A program made the translations under genes and the position numbers. From Lishizhenia tianjinensis (GTDB taxonomy: Bacteria > Bacteroidota > Bacteroidia > Flavobacteriales_D > Crocinitomicaceae), in contig CAMDLY010000028.1 of NCBI GenBank assembly GCA_945902115.1, positions 1 through 32,877 on the forward strand: a stretch of DNA of 32,877 nt. The letters run 5' to 3'. Positions 1 through 24,100 of the stretch are shown in pieces. The notes beneath the pieces are model-generated. The model searched no databases. It was not told where the DNA came from and worked only from the letters and a program-made list of their open reading frames with translations. Position 1 is the first letter of the stretch; the number at the start of each line of letters is the position of its first letter.

Positions 1-369
1 GCAATGGACGAAATCGCCACAGTGACGGCTTCGGAGAATCAATTGAAAGAAGCCTTGAAGATGATAAATGTTGTACCTAACCCGTATTATGCATTTTCTG
101 ACTACGAAAGAAATAGGCTCGACACCCGAGTGAAAATTACCAATTTGCCAAACGTTTGTACAATTAAAATATATACTATCAGCGGAAAATTGATAAAAAC
201 GTTCAATAAAGACTCAGAGGTTACCTCTCAGGATTGGGATTTGACTAATTGGAAAAATATTCCTGTTTCAGGAGGTGTTTACCTAATTCATGTAGATATT
301 CCGGATGTTGGGGAAAGGGTGTTAAAATTCTTCGGCGGAATGAGACAAGTAGACTTACAAGGTATTTAA
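1..369 (+). CDS. C-terminal part of a large surface/T9SS-type protein (5' end outside window)
   Basis: The reading frame is open from base 1, so this is the 3' end of a longer gene; the ATG at 4 is probably an internal Met. About 122 residues are visible. They contain a PNPYY motif, then alternating strand-like segments with IKIYTISGKLIKTF, a WDLTNW segment and a GGVYLIHVDIP segment, ending in FFGGMRQVDLQ. This is the pattern of the FlgD/T9SS type A-like Ig fold that closes many secreted Bacteroidota proteins (PNP..., GxxV/I, W.G/NxxG.xV..G.Y). The ending is not a textbook type A sorting tail, so outer-membrane attachment or secretion by T9SS is inferred. It lies 19 bp upstream of a PorV/PorQ-family gene, a common pairing of a large surface protein with its dedicated barrel. 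The function of the missing N-terminal part cannot be told. Confidence 0.7.
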   Translation, partial: AMDEIATVTASENQLKEALKMINVVPNPYYAFSDYERNRLDTRVKITNLPNVCTIKIYTISGKLIKTFNKDSEVTSQDWDLTNWKNIPVSGGVYLIHVDIPDVGERVLKFFGGMRQVDLQGI

Positions 370-388
370 GATTACAAAAGTGGAAATT

Positions 389-1438
389 ATGAAAAAAAAC
401 TTAGCAACATTCGCAATTTTTTCTTTGCTTGGCTCCTTTGTCATGGCAGGGAATGAGGATAGGGTTGGCTCGGCAGGAGCTTCACATCTTCTAATGAATC
501 CATGGGCTAGAAGCTCGGCGATTGCTGATGCAGCGTATGCAAATATTAATGGTCTCGAAGCGACATATACGAACATTGCAGGGTTGGCTTTTACCGAGAA
601 GACACAGTTGAAATTTAACTATTCGAATTGGATGGGTAATGCAGGAATAGGACTGAATTCAGCCGGTTTTGCTCAACGTATTTCTAGTTCTGATGTTATT
701 GCTGTAAGTGTTCAGTCATTAAATTTTGGCGATATTCCTATCACTACGGTTAATAATCCAGAGGGAAATATTGGTTTCTTTTCTCCAAGAGCGAACGTGT
801 TTAATCTCGGATACGCTAAAGAATTTTCTTCTAGTATTTACGGTGGGATTAACTTCAAGGTGATTTCTGAAAGTATTTCTAACTTAAGAGCTTCTGGAAT
901 CGCAATTGATGCAGGTATCCGTTATGTGACAGGTGAGCAAGATCAATTGAAGTTCGGTATTACACTAAAAAATGTTGGTCCAGTAATGAAGTTTAGAGGA
1001 GACGGTTTGGCCAACCAAGTTACCTATGTAACGAATGGTAATATTGCTACTTTGGAGCAAAGATCTGCTACTTTCGAGTTGCCATCCTTGTTGGGAATTG
1101 GAGCTTCGTATGATGTTATTTTTAATGAACAGAATAAGCTAAACTTAGCTTTTGGTTTTACGGCAAATTCATTTATGAAAGACCAATTTAGGTTAGGTTT
1201 GGATTATGCTATTGTAAACGATAAAATGGCGTTTAACTTAAGAGGAGGATACTGTTATGAAAGCGGTATTCTATCTGAGGAGAATCGTTCGAATGCTTTT
1301 ACAGGTCCTACAGCTGGGTTTTCTATTGATGCACTTGTTGGGAAAAGTAAAAGCGCTTTAGGTATTGAATATTGTGCAAGAATGGCGGGAGTATTTGGAA
1401 TTATTCATACGGTTGGAGCAACAATAAGTCTTAAATAA
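389..1438 (+). CDS. PorV/PorQ-family outer-membrane barrel protein
   Basis: A protein of 349 residues with a clear signal peptide (MKKNLATFAIFSLLGSFVMAG) followed by amphipathic beta-strand-rich sequence. It shows the family opening: RVGSAGASHLLMNPWARSSA, then a segment equivalent to GLEATYTNIAGLAFTEKTQL, and later GGINFKVISESISNLRASG and GIRYVTGEQDQLKFGITLKNVG. PorV is the T9SS shuttle that receives cargo from the SprA translocon, and PorQ-like members act in cargo attachment; this copy could be either or a specialised paralogue. The ATG at 389 is preferred over the in-frame GTG at 380 because it places the signal peptide at the N-terminus. The gene follows the upstream surface-protein gene by 19 bp and probably shares its transcript, ending at the hairpin at 1459. 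It is not beside a porU gene, so I give no symbol. Confidence 0.85.
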   Translation: MKKNLATFAIFSLLGSFVMAGNEDRVGSAGASHLLMNPWARSSAIADAAYANINGLEATYTNIAGLAFTEKTQLKFNYSNWMGNAGIGLNSAGFAQRISSSDVIAVSVQSLNFGDIPITTVNNPEGNIGFFSPRANVFNLGYAKEFSSSIYGGINFKVISESISNLRASGIAIDAGIRYVTGEQDQLKFGITLKNVGPVMKFRGDGLANQVTYVTNGNIATLEQRSATFELPSLLGIGASYDVIFNEQNKLNLAFGFTANSFMKDQFRLGLDYAIVNDKMAFNLRGGYCYESGILSEENRSNAFTGPTAGFSIDALVGKSKSALGIEYCARMAGVFGIIHTVGATISLK

Positions 1439-13059: not shown

Positions 13060-15129
13060 ATGCTAAAAGGGTTCATTTTTATCTTTTTATTTTTTTTCAG
13101 TTATCTTTCGTTTGCACAAGTGACCGCTGCTGACTGCATAAACGCTGTAAATATTTGTCAAAACGCTACCTTCTCAATTGATCCAAATGGACCAGGTTTC
13201 GTAGCTGATTTTCAATCAGGAAGTGTCTCAAACCCATCTACGAATCCAGCTTCATCCAATTCAGGGTGTCTTTTGTCTGGAGAATTGAATCCAACTTGGA
13301 TGATCATTAATGTCGCAGGTACTGGTACTTTGGAATTTTCTTTGGGCCAAGACAACAGTATAGGTTGCTATGATTGGATTATGTGGCCTTATTCTGCAAC
13401 TGCTTGTACGCAAATTTTTAATAATCAATTATCCCCAATTCGATGTAATTGGAATGGCCTTTGTGAGGGTTTCACTGGAATATCTACACCGCCGCCTGCA
13501 GGGGGCGAACAAAATAATTTTGAGCCTGAACTTAATGTTATAGTAGGTCAACAATACTTGTTGTGTTTATCTAATTATAGTAGTCAAACGACAAATTTAC
13601 CCTTGAATTTTTTTGGAACTGCAAATATTAGTTGTAATCCAGTACTGCCAATCACCGTAAATAGCAGTACAATCTGTCCAGGTCAGTCAGCTACCCTCAC
13701 AGCGAATGCCCCAGGCGCCACAGCATTTTCATGGTCTCCAGGTGGTCAAACCACGTCATCCATTACAATTTCGCCAAATAGTACAACAGCATACACTTGT
13801 ACCGCAACTGGACCTGGGGTGAACGGAGGCACAACAACTGGCGTTGCGAGTGGTACTGTTACCGTATTGTCAGCTAATAGCGCGCAGTGCGCATGTACCA
13901 CTACGGCATCTAACAATGGGCCTATTTGTGAAGGGGGCAATTTTAATTTAACGACCACAGCTGTTCCTGTTGGTTCATATTCTTGGACATTGAATGGCGC
14001 GCAGGTTGGTAATACACAAACCTTGAATTCCATGCCTGCCTCTTCCGCTGGCACATACACCTTTAATGTAACAGCAACAGATGGTGTTGGAAATGTTTGT
14101 ACCTCCTCTACACTCGTAACTATTCTCCCATTACCTGTTGTCAGTGCTGGTCCTGATGTATCTATTTGCAATGGTAATTCAGTAATACTTTCAGGTTCTG
14201 GTGCCTTAACTTATCAATGGAATAATGGTATTCAAAACGGAATTTCCTTTATACCTGTTCAAAATCAGTCATATACGGTAACAGGAACAGACCAAAATAA
14301 TTGTATTGGCTCAGATCAAGTCACAGTCAATTTATTGTACGCACAAATACCTTCAATTACAGCAAGTTCCATATTAGGATGTGTTCCTATGTCTGTCTCC
14401 TTTACAAATTCTAATCCTTCATCGACAGATTGCTCTTGGACTTTTGGTAATGGCAATTCATTTCAGGGTTGTGTTGGTGCTAGTACCACATACAATCAGC
14501 TAGGATGTTTTGATGTTACCTTACAATCTACGGATTCACAAGGCTGCGACACCATTGTAACTTTCAATGACATTGTCTGCACTGAAGAATCCATTGCGTC
14601 ATTTTATCCCAGTCCGGGAATTATAGGAGCTTCAAATTCAACAGTGAGTTTTTTTAATACCTCCGAAGGTGCAGTGTCATACCAATGGTTTTTCGGTGAT
14701 GGTGAATCATCCATTACACCAGAGCCTGTACATACTTATTCAACTTCTCTTCAAACAGGATATATAGCAACTTTAGTAACTACTTCTCAGGCTGGTTGTA
14801 CTGATACGATTTCGTCTCCGATACAGTATGAAGAACAAATCATCTTTTACGTCCCGAATTGCTTTACTCCAGATGCCGATGAGCACAATCAAATATTTCA
14901 ACCGATATTTAATTCTGGTTTTTCTGCCGAACAATGGAAAATGTCTATTTATAACCGATGGGGAGAGCTAATATTTGAATCTGTCGATCATAACCGTGGT
15001 TGGGATGGCTCATTTGGTGGAGAAGGAGGAGTGGTTCAAGGCGGAATTTATTCATGGGTTATACGTTATAAACCACCAAATAATGACGAAAAAGTCGTAG
15101 TTAGTGGTTTTGTCAATGTTCTTAGATAA
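13060..15129 (+). CDS. Secreted protein with PKD/Ig-like domains and T9SS type B sorting domain
   Basis: A 689-residue protein. Residues 1-20 are a signal peptide (ends YLSFAQ). Residues 21-195 form an N-terminal domain with paired cysteines and text such as CINAVNICQNATFS and NPTWMIINVAGTG, seen on many Bacteroidota gliding-associated proteins. Two or three Ig/PKD-like domains follow (about 195-430), then two PKD-type domains (CSWTFGNGN near 457, YQWFFGDGES near 540). The last 92 residues (598-689) are a type B (CHU_C) domain: VPNCFTPDADEHNQIF, MSIYNRWGELIFES, GWDGSFGG and GGIYSWVIRY. It should therefore cross the outer membrane through T9SS. The substrate or adhesion target is unknown. Transcription ends at the hairpin at 15147. 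Confidence 0.92.
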   Translation: MLKGFIFIFLFFFSYLSFAQVTAADCINAVNICQNATFSIDPNGPGFVADFQSGSVSNPSTNPASSNSGCLLSGELNPTWMIINVAGTGTLEFSLGQDNSIGCYDWIMWPYSATACTQIFNNQLSPIRCNWNGLCEGFTGISTPPPAGGEQNNFEPELNVIVGQQYLLCLSNYSSQTTNLPLNFFGTANISCNPVLPITVNSSTICPGQSATLTANAPGATAFSWSPGGQTTSSITISPNSTTAYTCTATGPGVNGGTTTGVASGTVTVLSANSAQCACTTTASNNGPICEGGNFNLTTTAVPVGSYSWTLNGAQVGNTQTLNSMPASSAGTYTFNVTATDGVGNVCTSSTLVTILPLPVVSAGPDVSICNGNSVILSGSGALTYQWNNGIQNGISFIPVQNQSYTVTGTDQNNCIGSDQVTVNLLYAQIPSITASSILGCVPMSVSFTNSNPSSTDCSWTFGNGNSFQGCVGASTTYNQLGCFDVTLQSTDSQGCDTIVTFNDIVCTEESIASFYPSPGIIGASNSTVSFFNTSEGAVSYQWFFGDGESSITPEPVHTYSTSLQTGYIATLVTTSQAGCTDTISSPIQYEEQIIFYVPNCFTPDADEHNQIFQPIFNSGFSAEQWKMSIYNRWGELIFESVDHNRGWDGSFGGEGGVVQGGIYSWVIRYKPPNNDEKVVVSGFVNVLR

Positions 15130-21413: not shown

Positions 21414-22235
21414 TTAATATTTAACTTCTAAGTTGGTATATTTTTTATACAACTCTCCAAGACTATCTTTTCCGGTGATGAAATATATGTAAGATCCTGA
21501 TGGAACTAAATCGCCATTTTTATCACGTCCATCCCACATAAATTCAGTTCCTTGGAAAGTAAATTGAACCTGCCCTTTCATATTTAATACCACTAAAGAG
21601 ACATCCTCAAGTTGGGTCATATTTATAGTCAATAGATCATTGCTTCCATCACCATTAGGGGTAAAAATATTTGGCAATAAAAGTTCAAGGTCACTAGATT
21701 TAGGTGCGCGTTGATCTTCATTTACTATTGGTGTTTCCTTGATAGTTGAATTTTTCATAACCTCAGCTATTGGTTTACTGCTGCTTTCAATGTTATTTGG
21801 CGTAACTTTTTCCGAAAGAGAATGTTGCGTTGAGGTTTGTTGAACTGACACGGGTGTTTCTGAATAAATTTCAGCTTCTTTCAACACATTTTCAATAGGT
21901 CTATTTTGAAACTTGATAGATTCGATTTCGTCTCGATTTAGACTATTATTCGATGGTGTTTTTTCCTTGTTATCAAAGGTTTGCTGCTTTGGTGTTTCGA
22001 TTGTCTTTTTTTCTTGTTGACTAGTATCAACTGTAAAATAGAGAACGCTGGTTACTGTTGCTGCAACAACAGAAACACCAATTGCAACTTTTGAGAGGAG
22101 ACTTAAGCCAGTAGAGATAGAACTTGTATTTGAAATAGCTGTGGAGACATTAGACCAAATTTCAGGACGCACTGAAGACTCAAAGTTATCTAACTTGTTC
22201 TTTAATAAGTTATTAAATAAATCTTTATCTTCCAT
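21414..22235 (-). CDS. Membrane anti-sigma-like protein with C-terminal T9SS type B-like domain
   Basis: A 273-residue protein directly downstream of an ECF sigma gene, sharing a TAATG junction. The N-terminal 45 residues (DLFNNLLKNKLDNFESSVRPEIWSNV as one short region) match the cytosolic segment seen on many Bacteroidota proteins encoded after sigma genes. A single membrane span lies at 48-67. Residues 70-182 are a Ser/Thr/Gln/Glu/Lys-rich, probably disordered spacer. Residues 185-273 look like a type B/gliding-associated C-terminal domain: LLPNIFTPNGDGSNDLLTI, VVLNMKGQVQF, MWDGRDKNGDLVPSGSYIYFI, ending LEVKY. There is no cleavable signal peptide. I infer a sigma-sequestering membrane protein whose outer domain senses an envelope state. 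No zinc-finger HHCC motif is present. Confidence 0.75.
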   Translation of the reverse strand: MEDKDLFNNLLKNKLDNFESSVRPEIWSNVSTAISNTSSISTGLSLLSKVAIGVSVVAATVTSVLYFTVDTSQQEKKTIETPKQQTFDNKEKTPSNNSLNRDEIESIKFQNRPIENVLKEAEIYSETPVSVQQTSTQHSLSEKVTPNNIESSSKPIAEVMKNSTIKETPIVNEDQRAPKSSDLELLLPNIFTPNGDGSNDLLTINMTQLEDVSLVVLNMKGQVQFTFQGTEFMWDGRDKNGDLVPSGSYIYFITGKDSLGELYKKYTNLEVKY

Positions 22236-22759
22236 TATTTCTTTTCAATTCGTTCTCTTAAATAAGCCCTTGCTCGGAGGTATTGCGATTTAGATGTGCT
22301 TTCGGTTATCTTTAAATGCGCAGCAATATCCTGATGACTGAAACCTTCAATTGCAAACATATTGAATACCACTCTGTAACCATCAGGCATTTTTTGGATA
22401 AGCTTAAGTAAATCTCCTGCAGCTATATTTTCTAGAATTCTGTCGTTTGATACTAATTTGTATTCTACTTCATCAGTGGACTGATCACCTAATAATTTAG
22501 CATTTTTTCTTATTTGATCGATACAGGTATTTACTACAATTCGTCTAATCCAACCTTCTAATGACCCTTCGTTTTTATATTTATTTAAATAGCTAAAAAC
22601 CTTGGTCATACTATCTTGCAGCATATCCTCGGCTTCTTGGCTGTTTTTCATATATCTTAGACAAACAGTCATCATTTTAGGGGCAAACTTGTCAAAAAAC
22701 GTTTTTTGTGCTCTTGGATTTCCTTTTAAACATTCGGCAACGAGTGTAATTTCATCCAT
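22235..22759 (-). CDS. ECF-type RNA polymerase sigma factor
   Basis: A 174-residue sigma-70 family factor with only regions 2 and 4. Region 2 (about 15-85) includes CLRYMKNSQEAEDMLQDSMTKVF and EGWIRRIVVNTCIDQIRK. Region 4 (about 115-170) includes MPDGYRVVFNMFAIEGFSHQDIAAHL followed by the helix ITESTSKSQYLRARAYLR. The gene heads a compact minus-strand block: sigma, anti-sigma-like, lipid kinase, ispD, ldcA. An exact -7 element lies 41 bp upstream of its start. Targets are unknown. Confidence 0.95.
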   Translation of the reverse strand: MDEITLVAECLKGNPRAQKTFFDKFAPKMMTVCLRYMKNSQEAEDMLQDSMTKVFSYLNKYKNEGSLEGWIRRIVVNTCIDQIRKNAKLLGDQSTDEVEYKLVSNDRILENIAAGDLLKLIQKMPDGYRVVFNMFAIEGFSHQDIAAHLKITESTSKSQYLRARAYLRERIEKK

Positions 22760-22799
22760 ATTACCCTTTAAAGACTTGTGATATGATTAAAAAGTTGCA

Positions 22800-22807: not shown

Positions 22808-22891
22808 TTTTTTTATGAAGATAGAGAAAAAATCAACTTAATAAAAGTTCTTAATTTGGCTAAAGCACTTAACTTCGAAATAGAATTTGTC

Positions 22892-24100
22892 ATGAAAATA
22901 CTTATTGTCTTAATTTTTTTTCTTGTCGCCACTTGCTCTTTTTCACAATCGCTGTCAAAAAAACCAATTTCCACTTGGAAAGGGATTCTTGGTATGAACG
23001 ACAGATTAGAAATTCCGTTTCTATTTGATTTTGCTAAGAAAGGAAGACATTATTCAATGATAATAAAGAATGGAGAGGAACGAATTAAACTCCGATGTAA
23101 GTATGAGAAAGACAGTATCACAGCACATTTTCCAGGTATTGATTCCTATTTAAGAATCAAATGTGAAGGGAAAGAAATGAGAGGTTATTGGGTAAACATG
23201 AACAAAACAAGGGCACAAAAAATCCCTCTACAAGCATACACGAGTAAAGATATTTTGCGTTTTGAGTTTATTGAAAAAGAAGTTCACGTCCCTTTATTTC
23301 CACGATATAGTTTTGTGTTTAATGATGTCAAAGAAAAAAATATTGCTGTGGGAATTTTTAAGTCTGCCGATAAATTTGTCAGTGGCACCATTATGACAGA
23401 AACAGGTGATTATCGTTATTTGGATGGCATATTAAATGGTTCTCACCTTAGTATGTCTACTTTTAATGGCATTTGGGCTATGCGGATAGAGTGTGAAATT
23501 AAGGAAGACAGTCTTATTGGGGAGTTTTATAGCGGTACCTCTTATCGAACAACCTTGGGAGGAGTTGCAAACGACAGTGTTAGGTTGCGCAAGGCCAATT
23601 CACTTACTTATGTGATAAATGATCAAGCCATTAATTTTTCATCTGTAAAATCCTTGAAGGGTAAAGCTTACAATGCAAATAAAAAATCAACGTTAACCCT
23701 GTTTCAAGTAATGGGGTCGTGGTGTCCGAATTGTTTAGATGAAATAGTTTTTTTTAAGGAGCTGCATAAGGACTATGCAAAAGAAGGATTAAGCATTGTT
23801 GCAATGGCCTATGAAAACCAGAAAGAATTGAAAATAGCTCTTTCAAGATTGAAAAAATTTAAAAATCGAATGCAAATACCATACGAAATCTGTTATGCGG
23901 GTAATGCTTCTAAAGAGGAGGCCTCTGCAACTTTTCCCATGTTAAACGAAATTATGAGTTTTCCAACAAGTATACTCGTCGACGAAAATGGAAAAATCAG
24001 ACATATTCACACAGGGTTTAGTGGTCCTGCTACCGGGAAAATCTACGAGGATTATAAGAAGGAAATGAGGGAAATCATCGAACAGTTACTTAAAGAATGA
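22892..24100 (+). CDS. Exported TlpA-like thiol-disulfide protein with N-terminal beta-rich region
   Basis: A 402-residue protein. The ATG at 22892 is chosen because it gives a clean signal peptide (MKILIVLIFFLVATCSFSQ); a TTG further up adds a charged extension. Residues 22-255 are beta-rich, perhaps two related halves, the second with SGTIMTETGDYRYLDGILNG and GEFYSGTSY, text typical of Bacteroidota TlpA-like proteins. Residues 260-402 form a thioredoxin fold with the redox site W277-C-P-N-C281 and a cis-Pro loop near SFPTSILVDENGKI. It probably reduces or oxidises periplasmic thiols, for example in cytochrome c maturation or envelope redox; the exact partner is unknown. It overlaps the next gene by ATGA. 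Confidence 0.88.
   Translation: MKILIVLIFFLVATCSFSQSLSKKPISTWKGILGMNDRLEIPFLFDFAKKGRHYSMIIKNGEERIKLRCKYEKDSITAHFPGIDSYLRIKCEGKEMRGYWVNMNKTRAQKIPLQAYTSKDILRFEFIEKEVHVPLFPRYSFVFNDVKEKNIAVGIFKSADKFVSGTIMTETGDYRYLDGILNGSHLSMSTFNGIWAMRIECEIKEDSLIGEFYSGTSYRTTLGGVANDSVRLRKANSLTYVINDQAINFSSVKSLKGKAYNANKKSTLTLFQVMGSWCPNCLDEIVFFKELHKDYAKEGLSIVAMAYENQKELKIALSRLKKFKNRMQIPYEICYAGNASKEEASATFPMLNEIMSFPTSILVDENGKIRHIHTGFSGPATGKIYEDYKKEMREIIEQLLKE

Follow-up and report, generated by a model that had tools for sequence, protein, structure and literature searches.

Lishizhenia tianjinensis carries a two-gene unit in which an ECF sigma factor is followed by a membrane protein ending in a domain that resembles the sorting domains of T9SS cargo. 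The best explanation for this unit, and one for which we hold belief and doubt in equal measure, is a tethered anti-sigma factor that senses the T9SS and sets the expression of its cargo. The unit lies in the window, which is the whole stretch of 32,877 nt that was analysed, and has the following features:

22773..22799 (-): putative autoregulatory ECF promoter TGCAACTTT-N15-GTC, 13 nt before the sigma ATG
22235..22759 (-): ECF sigma factor, 174 aa (PF04542, PF08281, TIGR02937)
21414..22235 (-): anti-sigma-like membrane protein with a T9SS-CTD-like domain, 273 aa (open reading frame; conserved neighbour of the sigma gene)
22101..22235 (-): its residues 1-45, presumed sigma-binding segment with two predicted helices (3-16, 24-35)
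22032..22088 (-): residues 50-68 (about), single membrane span (hydropathy)
21687..22031 (-): residues 69-183, unstructured tether of about 115 residues (low pLDDT)
21417..21686 (-): residues 184-273, T9SS type B CTD-like Ig domain (PF13585, TIGR04131, model compared with T9SS CTDs)

Of the sigma regions, the sigma factor has 2 and 4 only (Pfam PF04542, E 6.5e-14; PF08281, E 1.9e-13), and with 84.6 bits for the NCBIfam model TIGR02937 (cut-off 42.9) it qualifies as an ECF sigma factor. From the shared architecture of its neighbour and from the sigma tree we infer that it belongs to the ECF21 group. Both reading frames and the TAATG junction that the initial annotation had described were found as stated: the sigma stop codon ends in the same A that opens the following ATG, so that the frames overlap by one base. 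The anti-sigma-like gene thus lies directly downstream in the sigma operon, and of 30 family loci found via the anti-sigma-like protein, 28 have a close sigma homologue immediately upstream, and contig ends cut the remaining two. Elsewhere in the window, a thioredoxin-like protein of the ResA/DsbE type (22862-24100 (+)) is encoded divergently from the sigma operon. The contig start cuts a T9SS type A sorting-domain protein (4-369 (+); best models PorZ and PorU C-termini), which is followed by a PorV/PorQ-family gene (380-1438 (+); NF033709 135.9 bits, cut-off 90).

We are nearly certain of the anatomy of the partner protein. Its AlphaFold2 model, built from an alignment of 34 sequences, consists of two short N-terminal helices, a middle part of low confidence and an Ig-like C-terminal domain at pLDDT 91-98 (whole model: pLDDT 69.9, pTM 0.42). 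Kyte-Doolittle hydropathy on the 276-aa open frame places the sole hydrophobic segment internally, at about residues 50-68, and no N-terminal Sec signal peptide was seen. One membrane span, a long disordered-looking linker and an end domain had been suggested before, together with the lack of a cleavable signal peptide and a location in the inner membrane; hydropathy, low pLDDT and the modelled Ig-like domain bear out this layout, and the inner membrane is the predicted location. A plain T9SS cargo protein was rejected, since there is no signal peptide and the span is internal, and a FecR-type anti-sigma factor was rejected as well, as no FecR model was among the Pfam and NCBIfam matches up to E 1.

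Residues 1-45 matched no Pfam or NCBIfam model. Their Trp at position 27 is nearly invariant, with no exception among 34 sequences of alignment A5. Mutual information between the sigma and anti-sigma proteins did not single out this segment, with 21 of the 50 top pairs in the N-terminal part and 21.6 expected. Some anti-sigma-like proteins carry two to three tandem N-terminal PxxxW motifs (L129 577-1470 (-), L128 617-1474 (-), L150, L188 4554-5624 (+)), as if the presumed sigma-binding segment had duplicated. The tether of the Crocinitomicaceae, the family of the window, has a median length of 129 residues (interquartile 124-133, n=33) and a variable sequence; this combination of narrow length and free sequence is as expected of a spacer.

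For the end domain, a comparison of residues 185-273 with the type B sorting-domain profiles had been suggested, and the protein passes both cut-offs: PF13585 matches residues 187-265 with E 1e-14 and 54.8 bits (cut-off 27), and TIGR04131 scores 35.9 bits, just above the curated cut-off of 35. The cargo protein at 13060-15129, to which the initial annotation had likened the domain, reaches 35.2 bits with TIGR04131. No beta-barrel family was matched by the C-terminal domain in Pfam. The modelled domain aligns with the T9SS CTDs of PorZ (5m11, Z 9.2, rmsd 2.8 over 88), PorU (6za2, Z 8.9), RgpB (5ag8, Z 8.1) and mirolase (8qb1, Z 7.8), with chain D of the NucA-substrate-bound T9SS complex (8glk, Z 9.0, rmsd 1.8 over 72) and with the RemA CTD complex (8gl6, Z 7.9). 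However, streptococcal protease domains reach Z 10.2, as high as the T9SS CTDs, and Foldseek also retrieved FlgD. Since these Ig domains align about equally well, T9SS kinship does not follow from the fold by itself. A PDB sequence search gave weak matches only (antibody, FlgD, C5a peptidase).

The statement that the domain is of the same kind as that of cargo holds in part: it is related to T9SS sorting domains, but two cargo motifs are lost, and the wording was too strong. For comparison we took type B CTDs of 26 cargo proteins, of which the predicted regulon supplied 19 and the genome of the window seven. The (N/D/S)RxG motif is present in 26/26 cargo CTDs, in 2/34 anti-sigmas of the Crocinitomicaceae and in 13/47 of other families, and the terminal GxPhixPhi motif in 24/26, 1/34 and 30/47, respectively; the window protein has neither. 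Cargo and window protein share the domain family TIGR04131/PF13585, but exported cargo starts with a Sec signal peptide (PMC9143113), while the window protein has an internal span and lacks the two motifs. In a few relatives the TPNGDG loop is gone, too (L177, L189; alignment A5). The sequences point to a common ancestry of the anti-sigma domain with sorting domains, with the terminal motif kept in many lineages and lost in the Crocinitomicaceae. Due to this loss the domain need not be a working export signal in this family, and the idea of direct export is weakened; together with the loss of the TPNGDG loop it also means that recognition by the T9SS is not assured. The loss would suit a module whose task is to read a receptor and which must itself escape export.

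The missing motifs also bear on a reading in which the sigma factor controls T9SS cargo, but the domain is an Ig-like module for a cue unrelated to the T9SS, such as peptidoglycan, glycan or another outer-membrane protein, and the cargo genes follow a signal from the envelope or the environment. The fold is common, and the related Dma2 was proposed to sense glycan at the outer membrane (PMC13088901). On the other hand, a cargo-type domain beside the cargo-rich regulon predicted below would then be a coincidence, and the terminal motif persists in those 30 of the 47 anti-sigmas from other families. We regard this reading as unlikely, though worth serious attention.

The same gene pair recurs far beyond the family, as a survey proposed in the initial annotation made clear. 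A sigma homologue at E up to 1e-30 is present in 323 of 396 genomes of the class. The gene after the sigma was inspected in 112 class genomes, comprising 110 of the 323 plus two, G167 and G226, whose sigma matches do not reach E 1e-30; this set is not random, as it holds mostly the closest sigmas and 22 hand-picked cases (other families, SprA-negative genomes), G167 and G226 among them. Here the neighbour had a CTD-like end in 62 genomes, including 15/15 of the Crocinitomicaceae, was long and barrel-like (at least 380 aa) in 35, short in 14 and cut in one. Of the uncut barrel-like neighbours, 21/30 matched PF13568. The collected CTD-type proteins, including those of further Crocinitomicaceae loci, were selected by our own HMM seeded from 50 of them; in the Pfam and NCBIfam models, which are independent of this HMM, PF13585 matched 81/81 and TIGR04131 80/81 at E up to 0.001. 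PKD models matched 28 of these 81 proteins, and many other families place at least one PKD domain between tether and CTD (e.g. L164, L165), so that the arm becomes longer or stiffer. Among 80 loci of named records the neighbour was of the CTD type in 42, long in 21 and short or cut in 17.

With the pair recurring across the family, the class genomes and the named records, chance neighbourhood was rejected, and conservation of the sigma/anti-sigma pair across the Bacteroidia is highly probable. A sigma tree of 190 rows requires eight changes of the CTD label compared to 61 when labels are shuffled, and one branch of 117 rows (SH-aLRT 83) holds 108 of the 109 CTD rows, which makes a single origin of the CTD type likely as judged from the tree. 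Whether the CTD pair needs the T9SS can be tested only weakly, since SprA was found in 385/396 class genomes, that of the window included; the eight SprA-negative genomes with a sigma neighbour had five barrel-like, two short and one CTD type. The CTD-type neighbour belongs to the draft genome G154 (locus L142), in which SprA was not found, and counts against a T9SS role. The assembly may lack SprA, or else the domain is able to survive where there is no T9SS.

The closest described architecture is that of the dual membrane-spanning anti-sigma (Dma) family of Bacteroides thetaiotaomicron, which works with the ECF21 sigmas Das1 and Das2; beside the ECF21 sigma gene, Dma combines an N-terminal anti-sigma segment, a TM helix, a disordered tether and a C-terminal beta-barrel (PMC13088901). 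Our long barrel-like neighbours share this layout, and Dma-associated and CTD-type sigmas are related in one sigma tree. Like Dma, the window protein is encoded after an ECF sigma factor, and its chain runs from an N-terminal segment through a single TM helix into a long disordered tether, but it ends in a T9SS-CTD-like Ig domain instead of an outer-membrane beta-barrel, and the predicted regulon holds T9SS cargo, while NigD1 or PUL genes are reported for the Dma system in the same text. Since the barrel is missing, we do not file the window protein as a Dma, although it is Dma-like in architecture.

The putative promoter of the sigma gene has 18 nt between TGCAAC and GTC and is the sole match in the window, with 0.01 expected in shuffled sequence. 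The same spacing was found upstream of the sigma gene in 32 of 34 Crocinitomicaceae loci, and spacings of 16 or 20 nt in none. In the looser form GCAAC-18-RTC the motif precedes 89/98 CTD-type sigmas of all families (16- and 20-nt controls, 1/98 and 2/98), 22/30 short-type and 6/35 barrel-type sigmas. We thus add a fixed-spacing putative promoter of the sigma gene, TGCAACYTTT-N14-GTC, that is new here. The genome of the window contains only two TGCAACYTT...GTC sites with 18-nt spacing, one at the sigma operon and one 29 nt before the gene of a 663-aa type B protein with a PF13585 domain. It could be argued that a different ECF sigma factor with the same motif serves the cargo promoters, and that the domain match is incidental to the window pair. 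The occurrence of the motif before short- and barrel-type sigmas agrees with this, and so do the second match to the sigma (E up to 1e-30) and the 14 first-look candidates in the window's genome. However, the two strict sites in this genome are those of the window sigma and of one cargo gene, and the motif accompanies the Crocinitomicaceae sigma in nearly all loci, so we consider this explanation very improbable.

The motif TGCAACYTTTN14GTC is present in 77 of 100 Crocinitomicaceae genomes, compared to 18 sites in 18 of the 100 genomes for a control with the spacing shifted by 2. We fetched 76 of the at least 102 listed sites that did not look like the sigma gene's own; five of the 26 left out proved to lie at the sigma gene. 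Of these 76 motif sites 67 are located between genes and nine inside, in contrast to 6/18 intergenic control sites (Fisher P 6e-6). After removal of two sites at sigma genes and three without a gene, 62 downstream genes were left, with a median distance of 31 nt from site to start codon. A type B sorting-domain model matched 20 of them and a type A model seven, two sets that may overlap; a choice-of-anchor L domain was present in 15 and a PKD domain in 15. On a crude scale, 53/62 products have a hydrophobic, signal-peptide-like start, and a sorting domain may be hidden in the ten genes that are cut by contig ends.

The 2.5 Mb genome of the window has 39 places matching TIGR04131 and 99 matching TIGR04183 at E up to 0.001, which sets the background at about 2% for type B (39 places in about 2,300 genes, the gene number being an estimate) and about 6% for both types. 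The binomial P for 20/62 type B genes is 2e-20 at a background of 1.7% and 3e-10 at 6%. Related species do not count as independent cases, which makes the tally by genera more reliable: with our own HMM a type B gene (22 genes) was found in 12 of 15 genera. By the same HMM, 0/11 genes downstream of control-spacing sites have a sorting domain. We conclude that the regulon of the sigma factor, as predicted from the motif, is probably rich in T9SS cargo, which lends independent support to a T9SS role of the pair.

Other genes lie behind the same type of promoter. A recurrent secreted protein of 118-130 aa, in which no sorting domain was seen, accounts for 11 of the 62 genes (L277, L280, L284, L288, L291, L292, L293, L296, L297, L300, L302) and may belong to the regulon as a conserved component. 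In the genus of the window, the promoter in four genomes precedes a 214-aa LuxR-type response regulator (L275, L281, L283, L289), a hint at a possible second regulatory layer. At least three of the 62 genes look like housekeeping genes (L326, L329, L335), and these sites may have arisen by chance.

Two further families were considered. In the Acidiluteibacter family, where CATCT forms the end of the motif, there are 43 sites in 32 genomes compared to two for the reversed pattern. We fetched 33 of the 43 sites; nine others were taken as the sigma's own by position and one by its identical site sequence. Eight of the 33 precede a sigma gene (one of these counted as lying inside a reading frame on the opposite strand), six more lie inside genes, three have no gene and 16 precede another gene. 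Among these 16 genes nine encode a type B domain by our own HMM; in addition, L427 looks like type A by eye, and the cut genes L424 and L440 resemble CTD ones. As seven of the nine cargo genes come from one genus, this is a partial replication. A contrast comes from a family whose anti-sigmas are short and which, from the adjacent named loci of the short type on the tree, would be Sphingobacteriaceae. Here the motif gave 32 sites compared to eight for the reversed pattern, and these sites are partly real. Loci for 30 of the 32 sites comprised 13 inside genes, 12 at the sigma gene and five others, and a sorting domain was found by HMM in 0/20 genes within short flanks (1.5 kb).

We propose that residues 1-45 would hold the sigma factor at the inner membrane, and that the tether would reach through the periplasm with, at its end, the domain that descends from a type B sorting domain. 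There this domain would meet an outer-membrane T9SS partner. A PorP/SprF-like protein is our first choice, since type B CTD proteins bind PorP-like outer-membrane proteins (PG1035-PorP, SprB-SprF) and secretion of SprB is reported to need SprF rather than PorV (PMC9143113); otherwise, the SprA/PorV translocon may take this role. If the machine is free and the domain engaged, the anti-sigma would be pulled or cut and the sigma factor released to transcribe its own operon and the cargo-rich regulon, and if the machine is saturated with cargo, the domain would be unbound and the sigma factor held back. That the domain reads the T9SS at all seems to us evenly balanced. Given a predicted regulon of cargo, it makes sense for a free machine to cause the release; we put this sign forward as a tentative and rather doubtful assignment. 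Where the terminal motif is retained, the translocon might even thread the domain through, resulting in an anti-sigma factor across both membranes without a barrel.

FlgM is a soluble anti-sigma factor that is exported through the flagellar T3SS. The window pair resembles FlgM-FliA in its logic, as the anti-sigma bears the signal of a secretion system and the sigma factor is predicted to control the substrates of that system. Unlike FlgM, the window protein is membrane-anchored and its engagement by the T9SS is presumed. A T9SS counterpart of FlgM-FliA, in which the gripped domain reads vacancy of the machine and frees a cargo-dedicated sigma factor so that supply follows export capacity, is conceivable, if somewhat short of evenly balanced.

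The opposite sign would turn the same anatomy into an alarm: a T9SS that is blocked or leaves the domain unengaged would lead to cleavage of the anti-sigma, for which RseA-DegS is the model, and the sigma factor would answer secretion failure. An ECF-type motif before T9SS machine genes and a sigma/anti-sigma pair in Flavobacterium psychrophilum (PMC9723704) is in agreement with such a function. Yet the predicted regulon consists of cargo and not of machine, protease or chaperone genes, and extra cargo during a jam would be harmful, which renders the alarm quite improbable.

Sensing of free T9SS capacity by an anti-sigma factor would differ from the described control of this system. As is proposed for the window pair, a CTD protein feeds ECF-sigma control of the T9SS in Porphyromonas gingivalis (PorXY-SigP/PorA), where the CTD of PorA binds PorV. 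In that system the surface is the site of the CTD protein, the signal is relayed by a two-component system and the targets are machine genes, and in the available part of that account no anti-sigma factor carries a CTD (PMC7712824). The SM6 ECF-type motif of F. psychrophilum is likewise a promoter motif before T9SS genes and a sigma/anti-sigma pair, but its targets are T9SS components such as GldN and PorU, and the accessible portion of the paper contains no mention of a CTD on the anti-sigma (PMC9723704). Among the papers listed in our literature search, none was on an anti-sigma factor with a T9SS sorting domain; the 2024 PNAS paper on Dma or the 2013 paper on EcfO may mention one.

These results touch on the question of how Bacteroidota match the production of T9SS cargo to secretion capacity. 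The cases that we found in the literature, PorXY-SigP in P. gingivalis and the ECF-type motif in F. psychrophilum, are both aimed at machine genes. Here, one conserved two-gene unit joins a secretion-signal domain to the control of secreted genes, and the Dma kind of envelope-spanning anti-sigma factor is widened to a second, T9SS-type sensor domain. A defined sigma factor, a defined promoter motif and a cargo list form a directly testable set. Since the sigma factor seems to switch on the genes of tagged proteins, cells may in this way match cargo production to secretion.
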